A DNA stretch of 64,000 bases, from contig JAJDBM010000024.1 in NCBI GenBank assembly GCA_029261355.1, positions 62,001 to 126,000 on the forward strand, read 5' to 3'. The position numbers were made by a program, and so were the translations under genes. Below are positions 12,575 to 63,559 of this stretch, one piece after another. The stretch comes from Nitrospirales bacterium. GTDB lineage: Bacteria; Nitrospirota; Nitrospiria; Nitrospirales; UBA8639. The notes under the pieces are model-generated. The model saw only the letters and a program-made list of their open reading frames with translations, was not told the DNA's origin and made no database searches. Position 1 is the stretch's first letter. Each line of letters begins with the position of its first letter.

Positions 12575-14251
12575 CTATTCGTGGGTTCGCCACATTCGCC
12601 CATTTTTAGCCAACATGGCGTCAGCTTCCGCTGGCCCCCACGACCCAGCATCATAGGGATGAATAGCATGAGACCCAAGGCTATCCCAAACCTTCAATAT
12701 GGGGTCAACCACGCTCCATCCCAATTCAACATTATCACTCCGTTGAAAAAGTGTGGCATCCCCTGCCATCACATCATGAAGTAGGGTTTCATAGCCCGTA
12801 CTCGGAGCATCACCAAAGTATTTCGAATATTGAAAATCCATGTCCACATTCCCCACTTGCACATGCGGGCCTGGAACCTTGGCGCCAAAACTTAACGAAA
12901 TACCTTCATCTGGCTGAATCCGAATCACCAACATATTCGGTGTTAATCGGTCAACTGGAGTCTTTCGAAACAGCATGAGGGGAGCTGACTTAAATTGAAT
13001 CACAACCTCGGTCACCCGTTTGTGCATCCGTTTTCCAGTTCGCAAATAAAAGGGGACTCCTTCCCAGCGCCAGCTTTCAATAAACAATGTCATCGCCGCA
13101 TAGGTCTCGCGCAGAGAATCTGTTGAAACATTGAATTCGGAACGATAGGGAGGCACATGACTTCCAGCACTCATTCCCCCTCTATATTGTCCAGCCACCG
13201 TCGACTGTAAAACATCGACAGGATTCATGGGCTGAATCGCCCGAAGGAGCTTGGCCTTCTCGTCACGAACAGCTTCAGGGTCAAATGCGTTCGGTGGCTC
13301 CATCGCTACAAATGCCAAAATTTGCAAAAGATGGTTGGGCACCATGTCACGTAAAGCCCCAGCCTTGTCGTAGTAGGTCCCTCTATGCTCAACACCCAAA
13401 GTTTCAGCCACGGTGATTTGGACATGATCAATATATTGCCGATTCCACACGGGCTCAAAAATACCATTTGCAAAGCGAAAGACTAATATATTTTGGACAG
13501 TTTCTTTACCCAAATAATGATCAATACGATAAATCTGACTTTCGTCAATCACACTTCGAAACGTGTCATTTAAAATTCGAGCCGACGCCAAATCATGTCC
13601 AAACGGCTTTTCAATTACGATTCGCCTTGCCGTATTGTCCGATTGTATGAGGAGACCTTTCGCTCCAAGGTGTTGCACGATTTCTCCAAAGAACGTCGGA
13701 GATGTCGCCATGTAATACAGGTAATTCCCACAGGTTCCATATTGCGTGTTTAAATCAGAAAGCACGGTCTGGAGATGTTCATAGGTATGTGGATCGCGAA
13801 AATCTCCTGCGACATAATGCAAACGATCAAGCAGCCATTCTTTGATGGTGGAATCGATAGGATGAGTCGACAACTCCTGCAGGTCTCGACCAATTTTAAG
13901 ACGAAAATCCTCAACATTCATCGGCACCCCATCAACTCCAAGAATCGCAAATTCTTGAGGTAAAAGGCGGCTGACAGCCAAATTATACAAAGCTGGAATC
14001 AATTTCCGTTTCGTCAGATCTCCTTGTGCACCAAAGATCACAAAAATCGTAGGAGGTCTCGTCTGGCCTTGGCTCACTGACTGAAAAAGATGATTTTCTG
14101 AAGGGACAGCCTGCGTGACATTTTGGGGCTGGTCATTTTCCATTGTGAACGAGATTTCAGGAAATGGAGAATACAGGGATGTTACGTGAGAAGAATCAAT
14201 GCAAGAAAGGAAACAAAAGAGAGAGGAAGCAGCACTACCTCTCCTCGCCAT
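12575..14251 (-). CDS. zwf: Glucose-6-phosphate 1-dehydrogenase
   Basis: Oxidises glucose 6-phosphate to 6-phosphogluconolactone with NADP, entering the oxidative pentose phosphate path. Motifs: nucleotide-binding [15 protein letters not shown] and active-site RIDHYLGKE. The start is uncertain. The ATG at 14251 has AGAGGA close upstream, but the first 36 residues are Ser/Phe/Cys-rich and look untranslated; ATG 14143 gives 522 residues, nearer the family length of about 490-520, but has no Shine-Dalgarno. It lies downstream of the 89-residue Cys-rich gene and a c-di-GMP riboswitch and may share their transcript. Confidence 0.93.
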
Positions 14252-14308: not shown

Positions 14309-14578
14309 TTACCCTATGACGTTCGCACCAATCATGCTGAGTTCAGCCTGATGTTTGCGAAGTTCCTGCTCATGCAGTTGTAAGGCCTCAGGCGTATGAA
14401 CACAATCATGGACGCACATAGCTGGAGTTCCGTCACAGGAAAATTCAGAACAGCCCGTCACTTCCAGTCCCCCATGATTGGCGTCCCGAAATACATGCAC
14501 TTCAAACGTCACCTGACAATTTGTATTCGACGTCGAACATTCAAGTTGGGCCGTAGCCTGGGGAACCTGGGCTTTCAT
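14309..14578 (-). CDS. Small cysteine-rich protein, riboswitch-proximal
   Basis: An 89-residue protein not recognised. It has six cysteines (14, 21, 43, 48, 55, 59), the last four in CSEFSC...CVHDC, suggesting disulfides or a metal site, and a C-terminal amphipathic helix rich in His, Glu and Gln (LQLHEQELRKHQAEL). There is no signal peptide. A strong AAGGAG eight bases before the ATG supports expression. It is the first gene after the GEMM riboswitch at 14797-14880, making it the prime candidate for c-di-GMP control. Confidence 0.72.
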   Translation of the reverse strand: MKAQVPQATAQLECSTSNTNCQVTFEVHVFRDANHGGLEVTGCSEFSCDGTPAMCVHDCVHTPEALQLHEQELRKHQAELSMIGANVIG

Positions 14579-14796
14579 GATGCGCTCCTTAATGTTGAAG
14601 GTACTAACTCATAGTATTTGCGTACGACTTACGATTGATTCCAATAGATCAGTATTCGAGAGGGTAAACCTGGCATGCCATGAAGACATATAAGGAAAGA
14701 GCGGAAAGGGATACGACAAGAGTCCTCGATTATTCAGAAACAAGGGTTGTTCCATCAATCAAAACCCCATTGTTTCAAGAAGACTGCCATCTTTCC

Positions 14797-14880
14797 TTCG
14801 GTAACCCGGCGATCAGGACGTTAGATCCTTGATCCGTGGTTTTGCGTCCCCGTCTTTTAACGGTATGCCTTTTCGGGAAA
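14797..14880 (-). ncRNA. Cyclic-di-GMP-I (GEMM-I) riboswitch aptamer
   Basis: Read on the minus strand, the conserved parts occur in order: AGGCATACC (14862-14870; consensus AGGCAAACC), a P1b hairpin CCG/CGG with an A-rich loop, the invariant GGGACGCAAAACCACGG (14834-14850), a P2 hairpin GATCAAGGATC...GATC, and the 3' element GCCGGGTTACCG (14799-14810). The C-A mismatch between GGCA and TACC also occurs in the well-studied Vibrio aptamer. It lies about 220 bases upstream of the 89-residue gene. No clear terminator follows, so the control mechanism is unknown. Confidence 0.87.
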
Positions 14881-15343
14881 GTATTTCCGGTATCTAAACA
14901 CTCAGGACCTGCGAACATGTTCTTGTCTAAATTATCGGAAAATTTTAAAAAAACTTGAACATTCGAAAGGAGTATTTCTGTAAAAAATACACAGAAAAAT
15001 CAGCCCGCCAAGTGACCTACTGAATCAATATGAGGGGAGCCAAAAGAATCATAAATGGGACTAGAAGAACCATTCACATGCCATGAAATTGCACGATGAG
15101 AGCCTAACAGCCTAAAACGGTCTAAAGTCATGAAAGATACCCACACCTCTTGGAAAAAGAAAATTTAAGAGGAAAGGTCTTTACCGATAATCAATCCAAA
15201 GGTCTCATATAATTTGTAGTATGTGATCGTGCTGTGTTAGTTAAAATTACGAGACTTAGATCAATCAAATTCTCAATCATATATGGAAAGTAAATTGTCA
15301 TATTTTTTGCCCTAGATATTTCAAATGAAAGGAAAGAATCGCG
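14881..15343. other. Intergenic region between the riboswitch and slyD
   Basis: No credible ORF on either strand. It is AT-rich, has a small inverted repeat (TTTCTGT at 14975, ACAGAAA at 14991) and should contain the promoter of the riboswitch transcript (minus) and of the FKBP gene (plus). A weak plus-strand promoter match is TTGTCA at 15295-15300 and TATTTC at 15317-15322 with 16 bases between. Confidence 0.6.
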
Positions 15344-63269: not shown

Positions 63270-63360
63270 TGTGGCGGCCAGGCGAACCCCGGGAATAGAA
63301 CTTCCCCAATTCAGGTCCCTAGGCTTTGCGTCCTACCCTCTCAGATAGTTTGCCCTTTGC
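63270..63360 (-). ncRNA. Cyclic-di-GMP-I (GEMM-I) riboswitch aptamer
   Basis: On the minus strand: GGGCAAAC (63348-63355), P1b hairpin CTATC/GGTAG, core GGACGCAAAGCC (63322-63333), a P2 region with GGGAA/TTCCC stem, and GGGGTTCGCC (63281-63290) as the 3' part of P1a. Conserved GGACGCAAAGCC is a full match. It is followed by the terminator at 63221-63240 and lies upstream of the Rcp1-like regulator and receiver-kinase. The 3' half is less standard than in the aptamer at 14797-14880. Confidence 0.78.
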
Positions 63361-63365
63361 ACCCT

Positions 63366-63559
63366 GTTGTGTCTTTTATCGGCGTCGTATCATATTTCTT
63401 GAGGAAAATACTCCCTAGAATTTCCTTCCCCCAATTATCATAAAACCCTTTGCAATAAGGGGAAATAGGCTGGTCCCAATGTGTGATGCCCCTCATTCCG
63501 ATGAAGAGCTTGTACTGACACGCGACCCAGGCCCAAACCAAACCATTGTATATTGGCCA
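63366..63559. other. Region between the truncated kinase and the riboswitch
   Basis: No gene. It should hold the promoter of the riboswitch transcript; I do not see a clear sigma70 match. Confidence 0.5.

Follow-up and report, generated by a model that had tools for sequence, protein, structure and literature searches.

In the window, which is the whole 64,000-nucleotide stretch of DNA analysed here, a complete c-di-GMP-I riboswitch aptamer lies directly behind a sigma-28-type promoter motif and ahead of a small cysteine-rich (Cys-rich) gene with a conserved gene neighbourhood. The likely reading, and the one we favour, is that sigma-28 starts the leader and c-di-GMP gates its completion, with the Cys-rich gene gated twice and zwf standing mostly apart. 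In this mechanism a FliA-type RNA polymerase holoenzyme would start at ~14925 and transcribe a leader of roughly 350 nt carrying the aptamer, whose P1 helix (CUUUCC/GGAAAG) would be stabilised by c-di-GMP binding. Without P1, its 3' strand would pair with GUCUUC and keep a downstream hairpin from forming; the ligand would favour this hairpin and turn the Cys-rich gene OFF. The transcription unit would end with that gene, and its two gates would be motility sigma activity and c-di-GMP. The features concerned are, in order of transcription:

14932-14958, minus strand: sigma-28 (FliA) type promoter, TCAAGTTT-N11-TCCGATAA, with a predicted transcription start near 14925
14876-14881, minus strand: 5' strand of the P1 helix, CUUUCC, pairing with GGAAAG at 14791-14796 (duplex fold)
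14797-14879, minus strand: c-di-GMP-I (GEMM-I) riboswitch aptamer (cmscan, RF01051, 56.0 bits)
14791-14796, minus strand: 3' strand of the P1 helix, GGAAAG, also part of a candidate antiterminator (GAAGGAAAGAU with GUCUUC)
14721-14785, minus strand: candidate expression platform, formed by a hairpin (AGUCUUC ... GAGGACU) with the weak U tract CUUGUCGU behind it
14309-14578, minus strand: gene of the 89-aa Cys-rich protein, with the ribosome site AAGGAG immediately before it
14211-14246, minus strand: weak terminator-like hairpin, with T-rich tail, in the intergenic gap before zwf
12575-14143, minus strand: zwf (glucose-6-phosphate dehydrogenase), a neighbour and probably a separate transcription unit (Pfam G6PD, synteny)

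The aptamer and its sigma-28-type promoter

An Rfam scan of the whole window returned two matches above threshold, both to RF01051. The match in front of the Cys-rich gene (14797-14879, minus strand) scores 56.0 bits against a gathering threshold of 35 (E 3e-8) and covers all model positions from 1 to 87; it is a genuine, ordinary member of the c-di-GMP-I family. A preliminary description, made from the letters of the DNA, had named a near-complete GEMM-I aptamer and proposed a cmscan with RF01051; the match lies above threshold, and the aptamer proves complete. The two core sequences it quoted, GGGACGCAAAACCACGG and GCCGGGTTACCG, are present as given, and the first box carries the single change it had pointed out, GGCATACC in place of GGCAAACC (A-to-U). 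Since the same change occurs in L028, another aptamer of this genome, which holds six RF01051 aptamers, we regard it as a tolerated variant. The second aptamer of the window (63270-63364, minus strand, 51.4 bits) is preceded at a distance of 11 nt by a sigma-28-type promoter of its own (63376-63402) and followed directly by a hairpin with a T-rich tail; a response regulator lies ~0.5 kb downstream.

In the cmscan alignment, the ligand-selecting position equivalent to G20 of Vc2 is G14869, and by our reading of the same alignment the equivalent of C92 is C14801. G20 decides between c-di-GMP and cGAMP, an A there marking the cGAMP type (PMC9262584, PMC6274999). As the window aptamer has G at this position, c-di-GMP is its expected ligand. 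That it senses cyclic AMP-GMP instead, as a GEMM-Ib aptamer, seems very improbable: some other aptamers of the lineage do have A at position 20, so that the family may include sensors of cGAMP, but the window aptamer lacks this mark.

The promoter that precedes the aptamer matches the box type TAAAGTTT-N11-GCCGATAA at 15 of 16 positions (M being allowed at the second) with a spacer of 11, while none of 585,000 positions in a shuffled control reaches at least 14. The strict pattern TMAAGTTT-N11-NCCGATAA has exactly two matches in the 4.63 Mb genome, both ahead of c-di-GMP-I aptamers, and the looser core TMAAG-N15-CCGATAA has seven, compared with one for the reversed control. Four of these seven lie 11-52 nt before aptamers (the window promoter and those of a Tad-pilus locus, a fibronectin-type protein and a response-regulator locus), and another, 124 nt before the start of flagellin, provides a natural positive control. 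The remaining exact core matches precede a 57-aa membrane protein (G000:C50:67106-67132) and lie on the contig of the Tad-locus aptamer, 6 kb from it (G000:C5:108668-108694).

The enrichment extends to 67 aptamer leaders from thirteen genomes, scored within 140 nt upstream and leaving out overlap with the aptamer's own CCCGATAA: 30 carry at least 11 of the 12 core positions (0.075% of shuffled upstreams) and 47 at least 10 (1% of shuffles), although homologous leaders recur in this set and are not independent. For that reason the four of six unrelated targets within the one genome are the cleaner test. The motif suggests that a sigma-28-type (FliA-type) factor would read the window promoter. 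Two FliA/WhiG-family sigma factors score above cut-off in this genome, and either may be the one that reads it. The FliA gene (contig C12, 263 bits) adjoins an flhG-like gene and has no listed aptamer; a second, riboswitch-controlled sigma gene was rejected as 'the' FliA, as this better candidate exists without one.

The expression platform and the predicted sign

In folding of growing window transcripts, the 3' strand of P1 is captured by GUCUUC at 0.82-0.91 when free and at 0.01-0.10 with P1 forced, P1 and the antiterminator being mutually exclusive. Since this pairing is lost when P1 is held, a ligand-induced hairpin and hence an OFF response are predicted. Equilibrium folding of the full leader gave a terminator stem probability that is unresponsive to P1, so that the sign comes only from the growing-transcript view. 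The platform hairpin itself is weak, with a z of only -1.1, no better than shuffles, and a poor U tract; the strict terminator scan does not call it. The predicted sign also varies among homologs in growing-transcript folding, where the leader of relative G015 looks ON and those of G047 and G039 show no switch. With a hairpin no better than shuffles, a poor U tract and an ON prediction for G015, we hold the sign weakly: the folding suggests, at low confidence, that c-di-GMP may switch the window Cys-rich gene OFF. Occlusion of the ribosome site by the aptamer was rejected, accessibility of the Shine-Dalgarno sequence being equal with and without P1. A different arrangement is seen at L027 (G000:C52:78862-78941), which precedes a fibronectin-type secreted protein and is followed by a GGGGCCTTCCTC..GAAGGAGGAGCCCC-ATG hairpin; this hairpin would hide the ribosome site and act as a translational platform.

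The weakness of the window platform would also suit a leader that exerts no cis control over the gene, the aptamer being either a relic in decay or part of a free RNA that binds c-di-GMP, comparable to Bdellovibrio merRNA, with sigma-28 alone controlling the Cys-rich gene. An alignment of seven homologous leaders, which speaks for the promoter in our preferred reading, lends this some weight too. All seven conserve the promoter, but two have an intact aptamer; it is degenerate in G047 and G039, a remnant in G029 and gone in G023 and G033, and in these last three the promoter columns are kept despite aptamer decay. Against it, the window aptamer itself shows no loss across its 87 positions and retains P1, and the homologous leaders of G027 and G015 have clear terminators after the aptamer, at the position of the window hairpin. 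We consider a relic or free RNA unlikely, though it is the most serious of the competing explanations, and retain a c-di-GMP-gated sigma-28 transcript as the preferred reading.

The Cys-rich gene, its cupredoxin partner and zwf

The preliminary description had noted an 89-residue protein with six cysteines, and the open reading frame at 14309-14578 (minus strand) does encode one; only four of the six, however, are conserved. In an alignment of eleven representative sequences C14, C43, C55 and C59 are invariant, and C21 and C48 vary. Homologs occur in 13 other Nitrospirota genomes, ten of them from relatives of the same order (45-61% identity, an eleventh match being weak) and three from more distant members found in a sample of the phylum; the named records with homologs are all Nitrospirota MAGs. 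Searches of Pfam, NCBIfam and the PDB gave no match for the protein, and the only signal, to Zn_ribbon_15, is sub-threshold and confined to one homolog (E 0.077). A plasmid search found nothing. Its AlphaFold2 model was unusable (pLDDT 53) and was left out of the fold search. In two of the distant homologs basic residues come after an N-terminal membrane anchor, and under the positive-inside rule this would put the domain behind them, the Cys-rich one, in the cytoplasm. We take the protein most likely to be a tetra-Cys metal-site protein of the cytoplasm, either a zinc ribbon or a binder of Fe-S or Cu.

Directly after the Cys-rich gene, 12 of 12 relatives with downstream sequence encode a secreted protein of ~150 aa. 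It has no Pfam cupredoxin match. Its AlphaFold2 model (mean pLDDT 75.6, much of the core near 90) aligns with a copper nitrite reductase domain at Z 10.7 and 2.4 A over 98 residues, and most top rows of the fold search are copper proteins; the modelled fold is a cupredoxin beta-sandwich. The invariant residues H92, C132, C136 and M139 are candidate copper ligands. Most likely, the Cys-rich protein would serve in these relatives as the partner of a periplasmic cupredoxin. The aptamer stands clearly before the homologous Cys-rich gene in three relatives (L010, 46.7 bits; L012, 60.9 bits; L015, 73.7 bits) and in weakened form in two more (L008 and L009), which supports an association conserved across genomes. 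Several homologs have lost the aptamer or keep it only in decayed form, so it is not essential to the operon.

As the preliminary description stated, the gene next after the Cys-rich gene is zwf, identified by Pfam G6PD_N and G6PD_C. The first ATG of the long zwf reading frame, at 14251, adjoins a hairpin; the ATG at 14143 is the likelier start. The strict scan found no terminator between the two genes, and the hairpin at 14211-14246 folds with -13.4 kcal/mol and a z of -1.5. In three relatives (G047, G039 and G027) zwf follows the cupredoxin gene, in the order Cys-rich, cupredoxin, terminator, zwf, and strong intrinsic terminators (GGCCTCGGCG..TGCCGAGGCC-T5/6 and AAGAGCTGCG..GCGCAGCTCTTTTT) lie right before zwf, with z values of -3.6 and -3.2 in the two of the three that were tested. 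In other relatives zwf stands at a different place and has no Cys-rich gene beside it; in the genus-mate G001 it forms a block FKBP - zwf - orf201, where FKBP and zwf have no such gene between them.

The earlier suggestion that the riboswitch might control zwf, and with it entry to the pentose phosphate pathway, is not supported, given these strong terminators in relatives. A single operon of the Cys-rich gene and zwf, tying c-di-GMP to that pathway, would be in keeping with the position of zwf on the same strand ~166 nt downstream, with a weak intervening hairpin that makes read-through possible in the window, and with the recurrence in three relatives of a gene order ending in zwf. Those same relatives, however, carry the strong terminators, and zwf occurs elsewhere without the Cys-rich gene in others, which makes such an operon improbable; zwf is probably a mere neighbour of the riboswitch unit. 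When the window genome was searched with the cupredoxin of one relative no copy was found, and as the cupredoxin is missing, zwf now adjoins the Cys-rich gene. From the gene orders, this adjacency looks like what remained after cupredoxin loss. In relative G016, an orphan sigma-28-like site (L101, contig C34) matching 13 of 16 positions lies 294 nt before the aligned zwf start, with the Cys-rich locus on a different contig; the site is possibly a leftover of the ancestral gene order.

The lineage and known systems

Beyond the window, we see about even chances that in this Nitrospirales family c-di-GMP-I riboswitches generally act as a second gate for RNAs that sigma-28 initiates. On this view the motility sigma would start the leaders of Tad-pilus, fibronectin-type, two-component and Cys-rich/cupredoxin genes, c-di-GMP would select those to be completed, and a FliA/WhiG paralogue would itself be riboswitch-controlled. 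The aptamer upstream of a FliA/WhiG-family sigma gene (L030, G000:C61:193134-193226) has neither G nor A but C at position 20, as do L131 and L165 in two relatives, and L128, L137, L155, L166 and others in relatives have A, the cGAMP mark (position 20 calls in these lineage aptamers were checked by eye). A-type and G-type aptamers stand beside each other within one genome, for example in G002, G004 and G016, and a mixed c-di-GMP/cGAMP system is possible in such genomes.

c-di-GMP usually opposes motility. If the proposed mechanism is true, an RNA sensor of c-di-GMP on transcripts of the motility sigma factor would amount to a compact gate with two inputs, which the motif statistics make directly testable. 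It would link a tetra-Cys protein, along with the cupredoxin that partners it, to the decision between swimming and settling, instead of placing central carbon metabolism under c-di-GMP control, and would do so in uncultured relatives of nitrite oxidisers. In our literature search no paper on c-di-GMP riboswitches also mentioned Nitrospira or Nitrospirota, and among the open-licence papers listed there was none with a cupredoxin target. Two things are new: within a single lineage c-di-GMP-I aptamers are placed systematically behind sigma-28 motifs, and the target is of tetra-Cys/cupredoxin type.

With known c-di-GMP-I riboswitches (RF01051; c-di-GMP-I-GGC, RF03167) the window shares a complete aptamer above the gathering threshold and the ligand-contacting G and C, and P1 is predicted to compete with a downstream pairing; it differs in its target, a tetra-Cys protein/cupredoxin operon, and in the sigma-28-type promoter at which the leader would start. 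In the attack phase of Bdellovibrio bacteriovorus, FliA-type promoters (TTAAG-N16-CCGATA) reach far beyond flagellar genes, and merRNA is an abundant c-di-GMP riboswitch RNA without a conserved downstream ORF, not marked as FliA-driven in the table of that study (PMC3627812). Wide use of FliA-type promoters together with c-di-GMP riboswitch RNA is common to both systems, but unlike merRNA, several aptamers here are gene leaders directly behind sigma-28 motifs. The cGAMP (GEMM-Ib) riboswitches of Geobacter sit on electron-transfer genes, multihaem cytochromes (PMC6456294, PMC8835794); they resemble the window system in aptamer family and in redox or electron-transfer type targets, whereas the window aptamer has G rather than A at position 20 and belongs to a cupredoxin-type operon instead of multihaem cytochromes.
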